Shown here: in pieces, positions 5,660 to 17,457 of the stretch
How the letters are laid out: each line of letters begins with the position of its first letter
How positions within the stretch are numbered: position 1 is the stretch's first letter
Assembly: GCF_013408985.1 (NCBI RefSeq)
Contig: NZ_JACBZT010000001.1
Coordinates: 1,674,001-1,738,000 of the forward strand
Direction: 5' to 3'
DNA length: 64,000 bases
Source: Petropleomorpha daqingensis
GTDB lineage: Bacteria > Actinomycetota > Actinomycetes > Mycobacteriales > Geodermatophilaceae
Position numbers and translations under genes: made by a program
Notes under the pieces: model-generated
Database searches by the model: none
What the model was told of the DNA's origin: nothing
Seen by the model: only the letters and a program-made list of their open reading frames with translations

Positions 5660-6067
5660 TCAGGCCGCGGCGCGGCCCCGGCGGATCGCGGCGCCGTGCA
5701 GGAACCCGGCGATGCCGAGGATCACCAGCCCGTCGAGGGCGTGCAGCCCGCCCCAGAACGCGCCGCTGCCGCCGGCGTCGGCGAGCAGGCTCTGCGCGCC
5801 GCCGGTCAGCAGCACGAGGACCAGCGCCAGGACGACGTCCCGCCGTCCCGCCCGGCTGACCAGGGCCAGCACGAAGACGACCAAGGCGATGCCCGCCATG
5901 GTGAAGCCGAGGACCCGGTGGGCCTGGAAGTCGTGCCCCCAGACGCCGAAGCCGGCCAGGAAGATCTGCACCGCCCCCGCGAGCAGGAACAGCGCGAGCA
6001 CCACCCGGTAGACGGGCAGCAGCGGGCTGCGCTGCCGAGAGGCGGTGGGGGCAGGCGAGTCGGTCAT
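5660..6067 (-). CDS. DUF6220-like four-helix membrane protein
   Basis: A 135-residue integral membrane protein with four evenly spaced hydrophobic segments and a short polar N-terminus. It resembles the actinobacterial DUF6220 family, whose function is unknown. The ATG at 6067 was chosen because everything upstream in this frame is antisense to the LamG gene. It is convergent with the cyclase gene (stops 2 bp apart) and lies 20 bp downstream of the signal peptidase/LamG gene in the same direction, so it may be co-transcribed. Confidence 0.75.
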   Translation of the reverse strand: MTDSPAPTASRQRSPLLPVYRVVLALFLLAGAVQIFLAGFGVWGHDFQAHRVLGFTMAGIALVVFVLALVSRAGRRDVVLALVLVLLTGGAQSLLADAGGSGAFWGGLHALDGLVILGIAGFLHGAAIRRGRAAA

Positions 6068-6087: not shown

Positions 6088-8157
6088 TCAGCGTCCGGCG
6101 GTGTACTGGCCCGCGATCTCGTCGGCGGTCAGCGGCCGGTCGACGACCACCGCGTGGGCGACCGAACCGGCGAAGTAGCTGCTCGTCGGCACGTTCGGCC
6201 AGCTGCCGAGGCTGTCGTAGCCGACCCGCCAGTAGCCGGTGGAGTTCTCCGCCGCCGTGGTCGACGTGTTGGTGCCGATCAGCGTGCCGTCGACGTAGAA
6301 CGCCATCCCGGTGCCGGGGGAGAAGGTGCCGGTGGCCAGGTGCCACCTGCCGTCGTTGTAGGTGGTCGAGCTGGTGACGGTGTAGTAGCCGCCGTTGTAG
6401 ACGCCGAAGGCCAGCAGGCCGCCGTTGGTCATGTAGATGTGCCGGTCGAACTGGTTGGACTGGGCGCCGTTGACACCCGAGCCGAAGCCGATGAGCTTGC
6501 CGCCCCGGGTGGTCGTGGTCGCGAACCAGATCTGCACCGTGAAGTTCTGCGGCGCGACGACCTGGCGCGTGGTCCACAGGTAGCCGGAGGACCCGTCCAG
6601 GCGGATCGCCGAGTCCCCGCCGGCGCCGCAGGCGGGGCCGGGGACGCCGTAGGTGATGCCGGCGGCGGAGAAGGTGCCGTTGCCGGAGGAGCCCGCCGAG
6701 CCGCCGTTGGTCGCGGTCGGGCCGGTGGTCTCCTGCAGGCCGTAGTACTGCACCGCGCCGGCACCGGTCGTCCCGGCCGCGGTGGCGCAGGTCCAGGGGC
6801 CGACGCCGTACTGGTTGGCCACCTCCGTCGCGCTCAGCACGGTGGTGAAGACGGCGGCGTGCGCCAGCGTGCCGGCGAAGAAGCGGCTCGTGGGCGTGCT
6901 GGGCCAGTTGTCGATGTTGTCGTAGCCGACCCGCCAGTAGCCGGTGTTGGTCTCCGCGACCTTGGAGTTGGCGTCCCGGCCCACCTGGACCCCGTCGACG
7001 TAGAGGGTCATGCCGACGGTGCCGGAGAACGTCGCCGTCGCCAGGTGCCACTTGCCGTCGTTGTACGAGGCGGCGCTGGTGATCTCGTGCGTCGCCCCGC
7101 CGTCGTAGACGCCGAAGGCGAGCGTGCCGGCGTTGGTCATGACGATGTGCCGGTCGTAGTTGCTGGACAGCCCGCCGCTCGCACCGTTGCCGAACCCGAT
7201 CAGCAGGCCGCCGGAGGTGGTGGTCGTGCTGAACCAGATCTGCTCGGAGAAGGTCTGCGGGCTGGTGTACGAGCGGGCGGTCCACATCTGGCCGCTGGCG
7301 CCGTCCAGGCGGACGGCGCTGGTCCCGCCGGTGCCGCAGCGCGGCCCGGCGACGCCGTAGGTGACGCCGGTGCTGCTGTAGGTGCCGTTGGCGGCGCTGC
7401 CCAGCGAGCCGCCGTTGGTGGCCGTCGTGCCCGACGTCTCCTGCAGGCCGTAGTACTGGACGGCACCGGCCGTCGAGGCGGCGTTCGCGCAGGTCCAGTA
7501 GGAGCTCGCGGTCCAGTTGTTGGCGGTGGTCCCGGTGGTGGCGCTGAAGACGGCGCGGGCGTCGGCGGTGCCGGGGAGCCCGACGAGCAGGACGGCGGCG
7601 GCCCCCAGGGCGACCGGCCGGGCCCTGCGCCACCGGGGACGGCGCGGCTCGTCGTCCGCACCGCGGTGGGCGACGGACAGCGCGAGGAGGGCGACCAGGC
7701 CGGCGCCGGCGAGCGCGAGCGGGACGGTGCGGCCCTCGCGGGCCCAGAGGGCGGGCAGGCCGAGGCCGGGCAGCCGCAGGGTGCCGACGCCGTGCACGGC
7801 GCCCGGCGCGACGAGGGAGGTGTCGGCGCTCGGGGCCGCGTCACCGCGCAACCGCAGGCCGCCGGACCCGACCGCGACGATGCGGTGCATCCGGAGGCTG
7901 CCGGGCACGTCGGGGTCGTCGACGAGGACGACGTCGCCCGGCTCCAGGTCCGCGGCGGCGACCGGGCGGACGACGACGACGTCGCCGGGCTGCAGCGTGG
8001 GCGCCATCGAACCGGACATCACAACGCTGGACTGCCAGCCGGAGACGAGCGGGAGCACCACCGAGAGGGCGACGAGCAGCGCGACGGCGCCCAGCAGGAG
8101 GCGGGCGAGCGAGCTGACGACGAGCGCGGGCCAGCCCGCGCGCCAGGAGCCGGTCAC
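6088..8157 (-). CDS. SipW-type signal peptidase I fused to two LamG domains
   Basis: A 689-residue membrane/surface protein. It has a TM segment at about 12-36, then a signal peptidase of the SipW/ER type: SGSMAPTLQPGD carries Ser50, His91 replaces the usual bacterial Lys (motif MHRIVAVG), and a GD box lies at 105-106. Further hydrophobic segments lie at about 146-163 and 182-196. Next comes ARAVFSATT (200-208), which resembles the cleavage region of SipW-dependent substrates, and then two concanavalin-like LamG repeats of about 230 residues that are highly similar to each other. The GTG start at 8157 overlaps the stop of the upstream gene as GTGA. It is probably co-transcribed with the SipW-type substrate gene. 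Fusion of a peptidase with a lectin-like surface part is unusual. The ligand of the LamG domains is unknown. Confidence 0.85.
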   Translation of the reverse strand: MTGSWRAGWPALVVSSLARLLLGAVALLVALSVVLPLVSGWQSSVVMSGSMAPTLQPGDVVVVRPVAAADLEPGDVVLVDDPDVPGSLRMHRIVAVGSGGLRLRGDAAPSADTSLVAPGAVHGVGTLRLPGLGLPALWAREGRTVPLALAGAGLVALLALSVAHRGADDEPRRPRWRRARPVALGAAAVLLVGLPGTADARAVFSATTGTTANNWTASSYWTCANAASTAGAVQYYGLQETSGTTATNGGSLGSAANGTYSSTGVTYGVAGPRCGTGGTSAVRLDGASGQMWTARSYTSPQTFSEQIWFSTTTTSGGLLIGFGNGASGGLSSNYDRHIVMTNAGTLAFGVYDGGATHEITSAASYNDGKWHLATATFSGTVGMTLYVDGVQVGRDANSKVAETNTGYWRVGYDNIDNWPSTPTSRFFAGTLAHAAVFTTVLSATEVANQYGVGPWTCATAAGTTGAGAVQYYGLQETTGPTATNGGSAGSSGNGTFSAAGITYGVPGPACGAGGDSAIRLDGSSGYLWTTRQVVAPQNFTVQIWFATTTTRGGKLIGFGSGVNGAQSNQFDRHIYMTNGGLLAFGVYNGGYYTVTSSTTYNDGRWHLATGTFSPGTGMAFYVDGTLIGTNTSTTAAENSTGYWRVGYDSLGSWPNVPTSSYFAGSVAHAVVVDRPLTADEIAGQYTAGR

Positions 8158-8759
8158 GTGTTCTGCGCCTCCCAGGTGAAGGCGACGGCGGCGGTGCCGC
8201 CCTGCGCGCTGACCGGCGCGGAGGCGGAGAGGCCGTAGGTGATCTGGTAGCTCGTGGTCTCCCCGGACGTGCTGCCGGCGGTGGTCCACGAGCCGACGCC
8301 GGCGGAGTAGCTGGTCGGGAAGGCGGCCAGCGTGCCGCGGTAGACCGTGGAACTCGGCACGAAGCCGACGCAGCTGCCGGCAGAGCCGCCGGTGCCGGCG
8401 GAGACGACCACGGTCAGGTAGGTCGACAGCGACCTCGTCGTCGTCTTCCCGGCGCCGTACAGGCGGATCAGGGACGGCGCGCTGCCGGTCGAGGTGACGG
8501 TGATGCAGCGGGTCTGGGTGGCGCCGGGTCGCAGGCCGGACGCCGAGAACATCGCGGCACCGGCGTCGTCGTCGGCGATCGCGACGGTGCCGGTGCTCCA
8601 GGTGAGCGTGTAGGCGGGCGTGGTCTCGGTGAAGGCCGCGTAGGCCGACTGCCAGACCAGCCCGGCGGTGACCGCCAGCGCGCCGATCCCGGAGACGGCC
8701 AGGCCCATCCGGCGCGCGCGCCGGCCGGGCCGGGGGACGCGGGGGAGGAGCCTGGCCAT
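8154..8759 (-). CDS. SipW-dependent-type secreted protein
   Basis: A 201-residue exported protein. A basic N-terminus and hydrophobic helix (about 20-40) are followed by AAFTETTPAY, the signature of signal peptides processed by SipW-type peptidases, as in TasA/CalY-like proteins. The mature part is Thr/Ser/Gly-rich, beta-type sequence with two Cys and no enzyme motif, consistent with a structural surface or fibre subunit (inference). The ATG at 8759 has GGAGA upstream on the minus strand. Its stop overlaps the start of the SipW-type peptidase gene, so peptidase and substrate are translationally coupled. Confidence 0.82.
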   Translation of the reverse strand: MARLLPRVPRPGRRARRMGLAVSGIGALAVTAGLVWQSAYAAFTETTPAYTLTWSTGTVAIADDDAGAAMFSASGLRPGATQTRCITVTSTGSAPSLIRLYGAGKTTTRSLSTYLTVVVSAGTGGSAGSCVGFVPSSTVYRGTLAAFPTSYSAGVGSWTTAGSTSGETTSYQITYGLSASAPVSAQGGTAAVAFTWEAQNT

Positions 8760-8842: not shown

Positions 8843-10237
8843 ATGGCGCGGCCCTCACGGCCGCGGGTCGAGGAGGTGCGGGACGTGCGGCGGGAGGCGA
8901 GCGTCCTGCACCTGGATCTGGATGCCTTCTTCGCCGCCGTGGAGCAGCGGGACAAACCCTCGCTGCGGGGCCGGCCGGTGGTCGTGGGCGGCGTCGGTGG
9001 GCGTGGAGTCGTGGCGACGGCGTCGTACGAGGCGCGCGCGTACGGGGCCCGCTCGGCGATGTCGACGGCGGAGGCCCGCCGCCGCTGCCCGGCGGGGACG
9101 GCGTTCCTCGGCGGCCGGTTCAGTGCCTACCGGCGGACGTCGGAGGTCGTCATGGAGCTGCTGCGCGGGCTGTCGCCGCTGGTCGAGCAGGTCTCGATCG
9201 ACGAGGCGTACGTCGACCTCGCGGCGGGCGAAGGGCACGACCTGTCCGTCGACGGCGTCACCGCCCTGGCGCGGGGGCTCAAGGAGCGGATCGCGGCCGC
9301 GACCGGCGGGGTGACCGGCTCGGTCGGCATCGGCTCGTCGAAACTCATGGCCAAGCTGGGGTCGGACATGGACAAGCCGGACGGGCTGGTCGTCGTCCCG
9401 CCCGGGACCGAGCTGGACGTGCTGCACCCGCTGCCGGTGACCCGGCTGGGCGGCGTCGGGCCGGCGACGGCGGAGCGGCTGCACGCGGTCGGCGTCCGGA
9501 CGGTGGGCGACCTGGCCGCCAAGTCGCTGCCGGACCTGGTCGCGCTGGTCGGCAAGGCGCACGGGGCGGGGCTCTACGCGCTGGCGCGGGCGGAGGACGA
9601 CCGGGCCGTCGTCCCGGACCGCGAGGCGAAGTCGGTGTCGCACGAGGAGACCTTCGAGCGGGACCTGACCGATCTCGCCGTCCTCGGCCGGGAGATCGAC
9701 GGGATGGCCGCGCGGGTGGGCGAACGGCTGCGGAAGGGCGCGATCTCGGGCCGGACGGTGACGCTGAAGCTGCGGCGCTACGACTTCACGACGCTGACCC
9801 GGTCGCTGACCCTGCCGCAGCCGACCGACGACGCGTGCACGATCGCCGCGATCGCCCGGCGGCTGCTGGCCGAGGCCGGCGCCGGCGGCGGGCTTCGCCT
9901 GCTCGGTGTCGGGGTTTCGGGATTGTCGGTGTACGCGCAGGGGGACCTGTTCGCCGAGGACGCCGAACCGGTCCTCGAGGCGGAGGACGAGCTGCCCGCG
10001 GCGGTCGACGAGCCGCTGCCGCCCCCAGAGCGCCGGTGGTGGCCCGGGCAGGACGTCCAGCACGGCGACCTGGGCGCCGGCTGGGTGTGGGGCCGCGGGC
10101 TGGGGCGGGTGACCGTGCGGTTCGAGGGGCCGCTGACCCCGCCCGGGCCGGTGCGGACGCTCGCCGCCGACGACCCGGCGCTGCAGGCCGCGGATCCGCC
10201 GGACTGGCGGGTGAGGACGATGGAGGAGACGGGATGA
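8843..10237 (+). CDS. dinB: DNA polymerase IV (Y family)
   Basis: A 464-residue translesion DNA polymerase. The catalytic carboxylates are present: Asp25 and Asp27 in LDLDAFFAAVE, and Asp120-Glu121 in SIDEAY. Helix-hairpin-helix and little-finger regions follow, and the protein has the C-terminal extension (WWPGQDVQHGDLGAGWV onward) typical of actinobacterial Pol IV proteins. The start at 8843 is divergent from the SipW operon with an 83-bp gap. I see no LexA-type box in that gap. The stop overlaps the methyltransferase start as ATGA. Confidence 0.95.
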   Translation: MARPSRPRVEEVRDVRREASVLHLDLDAFFAAVEQRDKPSLRGRPVVVGGVGGRGVVATASYEARAYGARSAMSTAEARRRCPAGTAFLGGRFSAYRRTSEVVMELLRGLSPLVEQVSIDEAYVDLAAGEGHDLSVDGVTALARGLKERIAAATGGVTGSVGIGSSKLMAKLGSDMDKPDGLVVVPPGTELDVLHPLPVTRLGGVGPATAERLHAVGVRTVGDLAAKSLPDLVALVGKAHGAGLYALARAEDDRAVVPDREAKSVSHEETFERDLTDLAVLGREIDGMAARVGERLRKGAISGRTVTLKLRRYDFTTLTRSLTLPQPTDDACTIAAIARRLLAEAGAGGGLRLLGVGVSGLSVYAQGDLFAEDAEPVLEAEDELPAAVDEPLPPPERRWWPGQDVQHGDLGAGWVWGRGLGRVTVRFEGPLTPPGPVRTLAADDPALQAADPPDWRVRTMEETG

Positions 10238-14291: not shown

Positions 14292-16907
14292 TCAGTTGGC
14301 CATGTCCACGAAGCGGCTGTAGTGGCCCTGGAATGCGACCGTGACATTTGCCGTCGGACCATTACGGTGCTTCACCAGCATGATGTCCGCTTCTCCGGCG
14401 CGAGGGGATTCCTTTTCGTACATGTCCTCGCGGTGGATCATCATGACCATATCCGCATCTTGTTCGATCGAACCCGATTCGCGAAGGTCAGAAAGCATTG
14501 GCTTTTTGTCTTGCCGCTGCTCAGAGCCACGGTTGAGCTGGCTCATCGCGATGACCGGAACCTCGAGTTCCTTCGCCAGAAGCTTCAGTGCCCGGGAGAA
14601 TTCTGACACTTCCTGCTGACGACTTTCAACCCTTTTCCCGGAGGTCATCAGCTGCAGGTAGTCGATGACGACGAGCTTGAGGTCGTTGCGCTGCTTGAGC
14701 CGCCGGGCCTTGGCGCGGATCTCCATCATCGTCATGTTCGGCGAGTCGTCGATGTAGAGCGGTGCGTCGGCCACCTCGCCCATGCGGCGGGCCAGCTTCG
14801 ACCAGTCCTCGTCGGACAGCGTGCCGGCGCGCATGTGGTGCAGCGGCACCTTCGCCTCGGCCGAGAGCAGACGCATGGTGATCTCGTGCTTGCTCATCTC
14901 CAGCGAGAAGATGCAGGTCGCCTGGTGGTTCTTGATCGCCGCCGAGCGCGCGATGTCCAGCCCGAGCGTCGAGTTGTGCGTCGGGATGAAGCTGCGCCCC
15001 GCCAGGAAGAGGTGGTCCCCCGCGTCGACCTGGATGCACCGCACCGGCACGCTCGCGATCCGGCGGACGTCCGTGATGAAGCGGGTTCCGCGCGCGGTGA
15101 ACGTTCGCGCACCCCGCTCCTTGTGCAGGATCTGCTTCCGAACGAGCTTGAAGACCTGGTCGTCCGTGCTGAACGTCAGCGTGTAGGCGGTCGATGAGTC
15201 CTCGCTGCGGCCGCGGACCCGCTTGGTGGTCATCCGCACTCGGTGACCAAGGCTCGCGATGAGTTCACGAGTGTCCTCGGCCAGTCGTCGGCTGGTCACG
15301 GCGAACTGGACGGCGCCTCCGGGGGTGACCGTGCCGTCGGTGTCGAGCAGACCGGCCAACAGTGCCCGTCGCTGAGCTTCGGATGCACGGAGGTACTGGA
15401 TCGGGATGTGCTTGTTGTTCAGCACGCCGACCTTGCGGAGAAGCGCCTTGACGGTTCCGTGGTCGTCCCGACAGGCCTGGCACTGGAGGAGACCAGCTGA
15501 CGGTCCACCACAGTCCGGGCAGGTCGCCCGGCGCCCCACTCCGCCGCTGGCGCGCAGAGCACCGCCACAGGTCTTGCCGCACGTCTGCACTTGCGAGGTC
15601 TTCGGCGCGAAGAGACGCCCGCACATCGGGCAGGCGCGCTCGATGATGGCGGCCGGCTCGGGCAGCCGCATCGCGTAGCGGCGGTCGACGTTCGTCTGGT
15701 CGACAACGAGGCCCTCGGCCTCGATGTAGGCCGCGATCTCCGGATCCGCGCTGGTGTACTGCGCTGCAGCGGACGTGCCGTCGCCGAGCCAGACGCCCAG
15801 GGCGTAGGGCGGGAGCAGCAGGTCGGTCGCAGGCAGGTCCAACGGCGCGGCATTCGTCACCGAGTGATTGAGCCGTGCGTCCTTGGTGGCGCAGCGGACC
15901 GTCCGGGCGATCTCTTCAGTGGTCCGCACCTCCGCGAACGTCCTCTGGCTGCGGTAGCCGTTGTAGCCGGCAGCGGCGGCCTGGGCGGACTTACGGCTGG
16001 CACGGGTCTCGGTGAGCCACTGGTGCTGGGCATCGGCGACGATCACCGAGCCGTCGGAGAAGTGGACCTCGTAGCAGGGACGGTCGACCATCACCCCGGT
16101 GGCGGCCACGACAGTCGTCGGCCGGCCGTCGGAACCGAGGACCCGGGCGCCGACGCGGATCTCGCCCATCGTGGTCCAGCCGTCGGGCGTCGCGATCGGG
16201 GTGTCGAGCGCCAGCGCCTTGCCCACGCCCGGACGAGCGGCGATGACGATCATCTGGCCGGCCTGCAGGCCGTTGGTCAGCTCGTCGAGGTCGCGGATGC
16301 CGGTGGGCACACCGCGGCTGACGCCGCCGCGGGAGGCGATGGCGTCGAGCTCGTCCATCGTCGGCTGCAGGATGTCCTCGAGGCGCGAGTAGTCCTCGGA
16401 CATCCGCTTCTCGGTGACGTCGTAGATCTCCTGCTGGGCGCGGTCGACGATGTCGTCGACGTCCCCGCGCCCGCCGGCGGCGCCGTACCCGAGCTGCACC
16501 ACGCGGGTCCCCGCCTCGACCAGCCGGCGCAGCACCGCCTGCTCGGCGACGATCGCCGCGTAGTAGCCGGCGTTGGCCGCCGTCGGGGTCGACTGGATCA
16601 GCGTGTGCAGGTACACCGCGCCGCCCATCTTGGACAGCTGGTCGGTGCGGTTGAGCTCCGCGGACACGGTGATGGCGTCGGCCGGCTCACCGCGGCCGTA
16701 GAGGTCGAGGATGCAGTCGAAGATGACCTGGTGGGCCGGGCGGTAGAAGTCGTTGCCGTGCAGGACCTCGACCACGTCGGCGATCGCGTCCTTGCTCAGC
16801 AGCATGCCGCCGAGCACCGACTGCTCGGCCGCGACGTCCTGCGGCGGCTGCCGGTCGTACTCGGGCGCCGACGGGGTCGGCCTGCTGAACTCGTCGGCGA
16901 TCGCCAC
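14292..16907 (-). CDS. dnaB: Replicative DNA helicase DnaB, interrupted by an in-frame intein
   Basis: An 871-codon gene. Removing intein residues 231-645 leaves a 456-residue DnaB of normal length. The N-terminal DnaB domain is at about 20-125, the RecA-like ATPase begins near 195, and Walker A ARPGVGK|STLG is split by the intein. Walker B is LVVIDYLQL (745-753), and the DNA-binding loop region is GSEQRQDKKPMLSDLRESG. The start is chosen at GTG 16907 because GGAGGGG lies 7 nt upstream and DnaB proteins begin about here; ATG 16922 is the alternative. The last ~100 codons are much lower in GC (about 55% over 14341-14640) than the gene's 5' part. Helicase activity depends on splicing because the P-loop is broken. 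Confidence 0.95.
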   Translation of the reverse strand: MAIADEFSRPTPSAPEYDRQPPQDVAAEQSVLGGMLLSKDAIADVVEVLHGNDFYRPAHQVIFDCILDLYGRGEPADAITVSAELNRTDQLSKMGGAVYLHTLIQSTPTAANAGYYAAIVAEQAVLRRLVEAGTRVVQLGYGAAGGRGDVDDIVDRAQQEIYDVTEKRMSEDYSRLEDILQPTMDELDAIASRGGVSRGVPTGIRDLDELTNGLQAGQMIVIAARPGVGKALALDTPIATPDGWTTMGEIRVGARVLGSDGRPTTVVAATGVMVDRPCYEVHFSDGSVIVADAQHQWLTETRASRKSAQAAAAGYNGYRSQRTFAEVRTTEEIARTVRCATKDARLNHSVTNAAPLDLPATDLLLPPYALGVWLGDGTSAAAQYTSADPEIAAYIEAEGLVVDQTNVDRRYAMRLPEPAAIIERACPMCGRLFAPKTSQVQTCGKTCGGALRASGGVGRRATCPDCGGPSAGLLQCQACRDDHGTVKALLRKVGVLNNKHIPIQYLRASEAQRRALLAGLLDTDGTVTPGGAVQFAVTSRRLAEDTRELIASLGHRVRMTTKRVRGRSEDSSTAYTLTFSTDDQVFKLVRKQILHKERGARTFTARGTRFITDVRRIASVPVRCIQVDAGDHLFLAGRSFIPTHNSTLGLDIARSAAIKNHQATCIFSLEMSKHEITMRLLSAEAKVPLHHMRAGTLSDEDWSKLARRMGEVADAPLYIDDSPNMTMMEIRAKARRLKQRNDLKLVVIDYLQLMTSGKRVESRQQEVSEFSRALKLLAKELEVPVIAMSQLNRGSEQRQDKKPMLSDLRESGSIEQDADMVMMIHREDMYEKESPRAGEADIMLVKHRNGPTANVTVAFQGHYSRFVDMAN
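14973..16217 (-). mobile_element. Class 3 LAGLIDADG intein in the DnaB Walker A motif
   Basis: A 415-residue intein between Lys230 and Ser646 of the precursor. It begins with Ala instead of Cys/Ser and ends with THN followed by extein Ser. The class 3 WCT triplet is present: Trp67 of the intein (HQWLT, block B), Cys394 (VRCIQVD, block F) and Thr413 (IPTHN, block G). The homing endonuclease motifs are GVWLGDGT and LLAGLLDTDG. Between them lies an extra Cys-rich insert of about 60 residues (CPMC, CGKTC, CPDC, CQAC) that looks like two zinc-binding ribbons. Class 3 inteins attack at the block F Cys, which explains the missing N-terminal nucleophile. Confidence 0.9.
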
Positions 16908-16945
16908 GCCGGACCCCTCCATCCACTCACCTGCGCACCCGCGAA

Positions 16946-16972
16946 CAGACCCCCGTCGCTGACGGGGGTCTG
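16946..16972. repeat. Perfect 12-bp inverted repeat in the dnaB leader
   Basis: CAGACCCCCGTC and GACGGGGGTCTG are separated by 3 nt. It lies 24 nt upstream of the ATG and 39 nt upstream of the GTG of dnaB, so it would form a very stable hairpin in the dnaB 5' leader. Confidence 0.8.
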
Positions 16973-17006
16973 GTGGGGGAAGCACCAGGACGCGACACGC
17001 AAAGAC

Positions 17007-17022
17007 TCGAACGTGTGTTCGG
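17007..17022. promoter_or_regulatory. LexA/SOS-box-like operator upstream of dnaB
   Basis: TCGAACGTGTGTTCGG matches the actinobacterial LexA consensus TCGAAC-N4-GTTCGA except for the final base. It lies about 100 bp upstream of the dnaB start. Binding by LexA is inferred. Confidence 0.5.
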
Positions 17023-17079
17023 GTCGTGTCTACCGCCGGGCACCGACAACTTCGCGCGCTCCGGCAGCAGCGAGAGAGG

Positions 17080-17109
17080 ACGTTAGGAAGCGCGGACGGA
17101 CCAGTCCAA
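17080..17109 (-). promoter_or_regulatory. Candidate dnaB promoter
   Basis: On the minus strand, TTGGAC (17109-17104) and TAACGT (17085-17080) are separated by 18 nt, a sigma-70-like pair. The transcript would have a leader of about 165 nt containing the LexA-like box and the 12-bp hairpin. Confidence 0.5.
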
Positions 17110-17138
17110 CACCGGTGGGGACGTCGTTCTGCACAACT

Positions 17139-17147
17139 TGTGGACAA
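17139..17147 (-). promoter_or_regulatory. Consensus DnaA box upstream of dnaB
   Basis: TGTGGACAA is the reverse complement of TTGTCCACA, the full DnaA-box consensus. It sits in the near-palindrome ACTTGTGGACAAGT (17136-17149), 30 bp upstream of the candidate -35 box. This suggests DnaA control of dnaB transcription. Confidence 0.6.
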
Positions 17148-17457
17148 GTCGGTGGACGGACGCATGTCGACATGTGGAGAAGTGCGGGGACACCTGCCGG
17201 ACATCTCCCGTCATCGGGCCTGTCACCTGCACGAACGCCGCTCACGGCCTGTGGACCGGAGAAAGTCCCAAAATCGTCCGCGCGTCGTCCCCCGGCGTGT
17301 CGCGGCGACTGCCCGTCGCTGCTCATCCGTCCCACCGTCCACAGCCCCTGAGGGGCCTCCGGACGAGACGCTCCAGACCCGCCAGGCGGCCGGTCAGGGG
17401 GTCCAGCATGGTCGGCACCCCGGCCGGCGGGGCCGGACGTGAGCGGAGGGAGCCGCG

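Follow-up and report, generated by a model that had tools for sequence, protein, structure and literature searches.

A SipW-like signal peptidase joined to a SipW-type signal and two LamG domains in one predicted chain in Petropleomorpha daqingensis

In the genome of Petropleomorpha daqingensis, a single contig of 5.38 Mb, a single open frame at 6088..8157 on the minus strand of the window (the 64,000-nucleotide stretch of DNA analysed in this study) encodes P0001, a protein of 689 aa in which a SipW-like peptidase is followed by an internal signal and two LamG domains. Judged from its sequence, P0001 would unite a SipW-like peptidase and a TapA-like fibre initiator or adhesin in one chain, the latter being freed by the protein's own cut, a reading to which we give somewhat better than even chances. 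Fused loci were recovered in the family, class and phylum draws; the architecture thus recurs, with ectodomains that are exchangeable, and is no local accident.

Architecture of the fused protein

The frame begins with a GTG at 8157, preceded by GGGAGGCG, and this start codon overlaps the TGA of the P0002 gene by 4 bases (GTGA). From the N-terminus, an ER-type S26 peptidase is followed by the second hydrophobic helix, by a loop rich in Arg and by the third hydrophobic segment, after which come two LamG domains. The first part (approximately residues 15-165; 7663..8115, minus strand) contains TM1, the S26 catalytic domain with Ser50, His91, Asp106 and Asp112, and TM2, as delimited by Pfam, NCBIfam, invariant alignment columns and hydropathy. 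The Arg-rich loop and the third hydrophobic segment, ending in ADARA (approximately residues 166-209; 7531..7662, minus strand), are marked by site alignment and hydropathy as a putative internal SipW-type signal, and the alignment of fused proteins proposes Ala202 (codon at 7552..7554, minus strand) as P1 of the site ARA/VFSATT, the slash denoting the proposed cut. Two tandem LamG (Laminin_G_3) domains assigned by Pfam occupy approximately residues 223-689 (6091..7491, minus strand).

P0001 passed the Pfam cut-off for Peptidase_S26 (27.5 bits at residues 25-97, cut-off 22.9) and matched Laminin_G_3 in two stretches with 123.5 bits. It scored below the cut-offs of both NCBIfam TIGR02228 (residues 23-123, 44.5 bits, cut-off 51.85) and the Bacillus SipW family NF046067 (29.7 bits, cut-off 190), and it is thus not filed as the equivalog SipW of Bacillus. 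Eight relatives pass TIGR02228 (52.4-63.7 bits) but fail NF046067, and this TIGR02228 family was matched by all 32 LamG-fused proteins at E <= 0.01. Matches of 6 of the 32 to NCBIfam TafC were rejected, the three examined scoring 16-18 bits against a cut-off of 410 and falling inside the LamG region; a literature search on TafA/B/C gave only unrelated papers among the matches listed.

The catalytic pair of P0001 is Ser/His rather than Ser/Lys, accompanied by conserved Asp. The columns of Ser50 and His91 are invariant in an alignment of 20 fused sequences (20/20), and among the 32 LamG-fused and 13 otherwise fused proteins no substitution occurs at the catalytic Ser, the His or the two Asp, so that the peptidase part looks active, with cleavage of signal peptides predicted for this ER-type (SipW-like) S26 enzyme. 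No in-frame ATG, GTG or TTG was found between residues 140 and 235, and peptidase and LamG domains thus constitute one chain. A preliminary description of this locus had placed a peptidase and a SipW-type substrate region in the same chain, which is borne out by the frame, the Pfam matches and the site itself.

Strong hydrophobic stretches were detected by hydropathy at residues 7-47, 142-167 and 178-204, together with a weaker one (426-447) that falls within the first LamG domain; the site ARA/VFSATT sits just after the third segment. The second and third segments are present in all 45 fused proteins aligned, and in 40 of them the n-region, taken as the 15 residues before the third segment, carries a net positive charge. 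The N-terminus of these signal peptidases is usually inside, and with three hydrophobic segments the catalytic domain and the internal site would both lie outside, so that hydropathy and charge place them on the same, outer side of the membrane. A position of ARAVFSATT on the wrong side of the membrane would, according to the preliminary description, refute self-processing; the predicted topology puts it outside, after the third helix. The length of the third segment was discarded as a means of telling a signal from an anchor, given that it does not fall below that of TM2 (medians, 21 against 20; Wilcoxon p 0.63). An AlphaFold2 model of P0001, built from a 3-row alignment, was too poor (pLDDT 52, pTM 0.35) for the geometry between site and active centre.

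Conservation of the proposed internal cleavage site

The comparison started from 48 peptidase frames with long tails. Two of them that are without an internal signal (L119 and L139) and one that runs off its contig (L146, site ARA/VF) were left out, as was the repeat row of L005, whose place is taken by the window sequence, giving 45 aligned proteins, 32 with LamG and 13 with other ectodomains. Ala occupies P1 ahead of the internal site in all 45. An aromatic residue is found at P2' in 42 of the 45 (30/32 with LamG, 12/13 with other ectodomains), the remaining three carrying L, M and L, and it was also seen by eye in all nine further fused proteins outside this set (L146, L172, L173, L175, L176, L177, L178, L182 and L190). 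Among control A-x-A sites taken from the remaining frames of these loci and of the window, P2' is aromatic in 12 of 202 (Fisher 7e-33), a control drawn by a crude rule that picks non-signals too and in which unfused SipW-type proteins and false signals were kept. The internal site is retained in relatives carrying LamG even where identity drops to 28%, and also in the fusions with other ectodomains, which is more than expected by chance.

In the accessible part of the work by Musik et al. (PMC10269814), not one of the 143 LepB substrates that have been verified carries an aromatic P2', and the ER-type SipW is the enzyme that cuts TasA, whose P2' is Phe. The site ARA/VF of P0001 has a positive n-region, a hydrophobic core, A-x-A and an aromatic P2', the features of a SipW-type signal. 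Thus, as far as the available text of that study goes, the aromatic P2' makes the internal site read as a SipW-type rather than a LepB substrate.

Distribution of the fusion

The preliminary description had suggested looking for the same fusion in other genomes, where it was found repeatedly, as the 45 aligned proteins attest. The closest named relative is that of Blastococcus sp. TF02A-26 (L035), with 61-63% identity over residues 2-688. P0001 is matched at E <= 1e-10 in 81 of 112 family genomes, many of them by LamG alone, and reading of the loci identified the peptidase-LamG fusion in at least 20 of the 112. A query with the peptidase part matched 70 of 296 class genomes at E 1e-6 and 53 of 296 phylum genomes at E 1e-9, the two draws of 296 overlapping in some genomes. 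Four of the 26 new phylum-level loci (L177-L202) hold a fusion with a SipW-type site, two with LamG (L177, L190) and two with other ectodomains (L178, L182). Three of 72,556 plasmid records matched at E 1e-10, none of them across the peptidase part.

In a tree of 112 S26 domains, computed by a quick method with SH-aLRT support only and with some long branches and odd-composition rows flagged, the fused or unfused state needs 5 changes and for the label "none" a minimum of 4 is imposed by the starred branches, gains and losses being counted alike and not separable in direction. Both deep clades hold LamG fusions (36 and 1) as well as other ectodomains (2 and 11). One row labelled "none" (L092) is a probable assembly gap and another such row (L171) has lost LamG, so that the true gains may be fewer. 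L092 was accordingly dropped as a candidate unfused peptidase/LamG pair; in both of its frames, a repeat linker contains a residue left undetermined by an N in the DNA. The frame of L171 (4752-5768) keeps the peptidase as well as the third segment, and its close relative in L172 (5016-6728) still has the LamG part. A broken copy of a fused gene was observed in L174 (4891-5552), with the peptidase frame cut off and LamG in another frame.

Separate counterparts of a fused passenger

In four genomes (L105, L112, L128 and L142), the gene after a stand-alone peptidase encodes a distinct protein of 619-637 aa that bears a SipW-type signal of its own; the first start accepted for it lies 49-164 bases past the peptidase frame. 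The separate products are 40-59% identical over 457-471 aa to the passenger fused in L095, and Ig-repeat families are matched by both L105 and L095. By these sequence comparisons, the Ig-repeat passenger is a clear case of a predicted substrate occurring both separately and as a fusion. A separate version of the LamG passenger was not found in the loci read.

In these four stand-alone peptidases the SGSMxP motif reads GGSM[ST]GT, and in that of L131 it reads GDAMDGT, with Ala at the position of the catalytic Ser. More secreted proteins with SipW-type signals were observed near stand-alone peptidases in the phylum-level loci L179, L181, L185, L196, L198 and L199.

The partner P0002 and its probable kinship with TasA

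The adjoining frame at 8154..8759 (minus strand) encodes P0002, a protein of 201 aa with the predicted site AYA/AFTETTPAY, a signal of the A-x-A-x-aromatic type. The pairing of the fused gene with a separate SipW-type substrate, as first described, therefore holds, P0002 adjoining it with a SipW-type signal of its own. Alone, P0002 had no match in Pfam or NCBIfam with an E of 1 or lower. Iterated profiles collected 119 frames of its family from the loci, of which 54 were hand-picked and aligned. The aromatic P2' was present in 105 of 112 TasA-like partner frames and in 54/54 of the hand-picked set, counts that lean toward that signal because the collecting profile includes it. At E <= 0.01, the 54 proteins matched TIGR04088 (14/54), TIGR04089 (13/54) and TIGR04090 (2/54); other families matched among them were TasA NF046066 (4/54) and camelysin PF12389 (23/54).

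A profile of the 54 relatives reached TasA chains of the PDB at E 1.8e-8, and a mature profile of the 21 nearest relatives of P0002 reached no TasA chain there. An alignment of 150 columns (prob 95.4, E 1.7e-8) was obtained between the near-relatives' mature profile and an actinobacterial TasA-like profile, and the latter reached TasA at E 0.011, behind FAP74 at 1e-4. With the P0002 model (pLDDT 63), the top Foldseek match was TasA 5of2, a weak one (prob 0.99, E 3.8e-3, TM 0.39), and the search returned nothing at E 0.001. P0002 is thus likely, though not proven, to be a distant relative of TasA. The structural subunit of the preliminary description stands as a SipW-type substrate alongside the fusion, and the family profiles and the weak fold match change its identity to that of a likely distant TasA relative.

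In 43 of the 45 cases, the gene immediately upstream of the fused one is TasA-like; 39 of these were used in the pair comparison below, and the other four are L121, L116 (6866), L124 (6403) and L110. For L152 (4959) and L149 (9412), the frame listing held no TasA-like frame ahead of the fused gene.

Likeness between passenger and partner N-termini

The first 14 residues of each passenger were scored by BLOSUM against the mature start of the TasA-like partner of the same locus; the same four fused genes (L121, L116 (6866), L124 (6403) and L110) were left out, their partners being outside the hand-picked 54. LamG pairs (n=30) gave a mean of 20.4. Partners of other loci averaged 16.3, with 11 of 2000 shuffles reaching the observed mean, and means of -8.9 and -2.8 were obtained with random segments and shuffled letters, respectively (0/2000 each). 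Pairs with other ectodomains (n=9) reached a mean of 33.9 against 15.6 for other loci (0/2000). The likeness persisted without the first two residues (P3'-P16'), with means of 16.3 for LamG against 12.2 for other loci (9/2000) and -7.6 for random segments, and of 29.4 against 12.2 (0/2000) for the other ectodomains. Single LamG pairs span scores from -2 to 59, and the window's own pair, with 21, is near the LamG mean.

The locus-specific share of this likeness may be due in part to shared ancestry of the loci; the likeness of passengers to partners in general is independent of locus kinship. The resemblance in sequence between passenger N-terminus and mature partner start is new here.

Comparison with known systems

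SipW, TasA, TapA and the SipW-type signal are already known. According to the accessible part of PMC9674648, mature TasA begins with its donor strand, residues 28-38, F29 being among the contacts, and the N-terminus of TapA resembles this strand and was proposed to give the first one. The accessible part of PMC10151520 describes TapA as a complete Ig fold and hence as a filament initiator only, and reports an overlap between the tapA stop codon and the sipW start. As far as these parts of the two papers go, the locus described here is similar to tapA-sipW-tasA of B. subtilis in having a dedicated ER-type peptidase, a likely TasA-type subunit and a predicted second SipW substrate with a donor-strand-like N-terminus (PMC9674648, PMC10151520), as well as a stop/start codon overlap between two genes (PMC10151520). 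In contrast, peptidase and second substrate are here in one chain, the attached domain is LamG or another domain instead of the TapA Ig fold, and the subunit gene comes first.

The passenger shares with TapA, by sequence likeness alone, an N-terminus similar to the mature start of the partner; a globular domain homologous to TapA was not found in it, LamG differing from the V-set Ig fold. Thus, the passenger may work like TapA without being a member of the TapA family. For sipW-tasA, calY and capP of Bacillus cereus, SipW is said in the accessible part of PMC13082335 to process several fibre components, as proposed here, whereas peptidase and substrates are separate genes there. Compared with the SipW-dependent signal families TIGR04088, TIGR04089 and TIGR04090, one signal is here internal to the peptidase chain, and, compared with the archaeal/ER-type signal peptidase I of TIGR02228, P0001 has a long extracellular extension. 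Among the titles and abstract openings listed in a literature search covering few subscription papers, none described a fusion of a signal peptidase with LamG or with a substrate of its own, and the fusion goes unmentioned in the accessible parts of PMC9715654 and PMC10903470.

Proposed mechanism and alternative explanations

The P0001 gene may have originated by fusion of neighbouring cistrons of a TasA-type fibre operon, namely sipW and the gene downstream of it, for an ectodomain processed by SipW. The membrane-bound peptidase would cut the signal of its TasA-like partner P0002. It would also cut the chain to which it belongs behind Ala202, whether in cis or by one copy acting on another, releasing a LamG protein with the new N-terminus VFSATTGTTANNW, which resembles the donor-strand segment of the partner. 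In the manner of TapA in Bacillus, this freed strand would insert into the first subunit of the fibre. The LamG module, whose fold is complete and should not take up a strand itself, would thereby be placed at one fibre end as initiator or adhesin. The proposal of a TapA-like initiator or end adhesin derives from the likeness of the passenger start to that of the partner, the donor strand in TasA. For P0001, cleavage, action in cis, strand donation, joining of a fibre and adhesion are steps that we infer. The surface lectin or adhesin system of the preliminary description is retained in that the fusion stands beside a structural-type partner; instead of a plain surface lectin, the N-terminal likeness points to a TapA-like initiator or an end adhesin.

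The LamG part could also be freed by another peptidase, be it one of the LepB type or the genome's other SipW-like enzyme, with the fusion serving only for co-expression and co-localisation. Besides the window gene, the genome holds two strong S26 genes (E 4.2e-40 and 2.0e-35) and a weak one (7.2e-4), and its second, stand-alone SipW-like gene, located beside a TasA-like gene of its own (L143, 5013-6437; C1:3083363-3093881), could act in trans. A stand-alone SipW-like gene is likewise present in 9 of the 11 loci with other ectodomains (11 of 13 proteins), where its proximity makes processing in trans possible. Nevertheless, we regard this explanation as unlikely, considering that the aromatic P2' is poor for LepB in the accessible data of PMC10269814, that the LamG loci read (flanks of about 5 kb or up to the contig end) contain no stand-alone S26 gene except in L039, and that the catalytic residues of the fused proteins are invariant. 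Even less credit is given to a chain that is never cut, in which the third segment would be a permanent anchor and LamG would be displayed at the membrane while P0001 processes P0002. In its favor, the third segment is as long as TM2 and would be the sole anchor, the only over-threshold hydrophobic stretch past it (426-447) being inside LamG. However, an invariant P1 Ala and a near-invariant aromatic P2' have, as far as is evident, no purpose in an anchor, and a homologue of one passenger is encoded elsewhere on its own, behind a signal of the same type.

A further alternative accepts the release of the LamG part and denies its relation to a fibre, the operon simply secreting two unrelated proteins. 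LamG domains are common in secreted actinobacterial proteins and the globular part of the passenger is not TapA-like, both of which suit this explanation. It seems improbable to us, to the same degree as release by another peptidase, as the N-terminal likeness to the partner extends past the cleavage motif (P3'-P16') and a TasA-like gene precedes nearly all fused genes (43/45).

Returning to P0001 as a peptidase carrying its own TapA-like substrate, the proposal can be taken one step further, to a self-processing initiator that cuts itself once, releases a donor-strand adhesin and couples subunit maturation to the making of fibre ends in a fixed peptidase-to-tip ratio, with the fusion made repeatedly in Actinomycetota and with interchangeable ends (LamG, Ig repeats and others). 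This extension is offered tentatively, and we would at present sooner doubt than rely on it. If true, such a single-chain system would yield one adhesin per signal peptidase molecule, would offer a natural setting in which to test whether an ER-type signal peptidase cleaves in cis, and would be a lead to TasA-type fibres and end adhesins across Actinomycetota. The exchangeable ectodomains behind one donor-strand start would then represent a natural display system.

Genomic surroundings

A simple scan for promoters and terminators found nothing. The membrane gene downstream of the fusion (5660-6067, minus strand) was left out as a part of the system, as no relative of it was present in the frames of the loci searched. 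The divergent frame starting at 8843 on the plus strand is taken, from its translation, to be a relative of DNA polymerase IV. Elsewhere in the window, the frame at 14292-17204 (minus strand, 970 aa) presumably encodes the replicative helicase DnaB and, judging by motifs in its translation, seems to hold an intein. Very long frames (1201-2282 aa) with LamG matches to P0001 form a block in another region of the same genome, C1:2586851-2610177.
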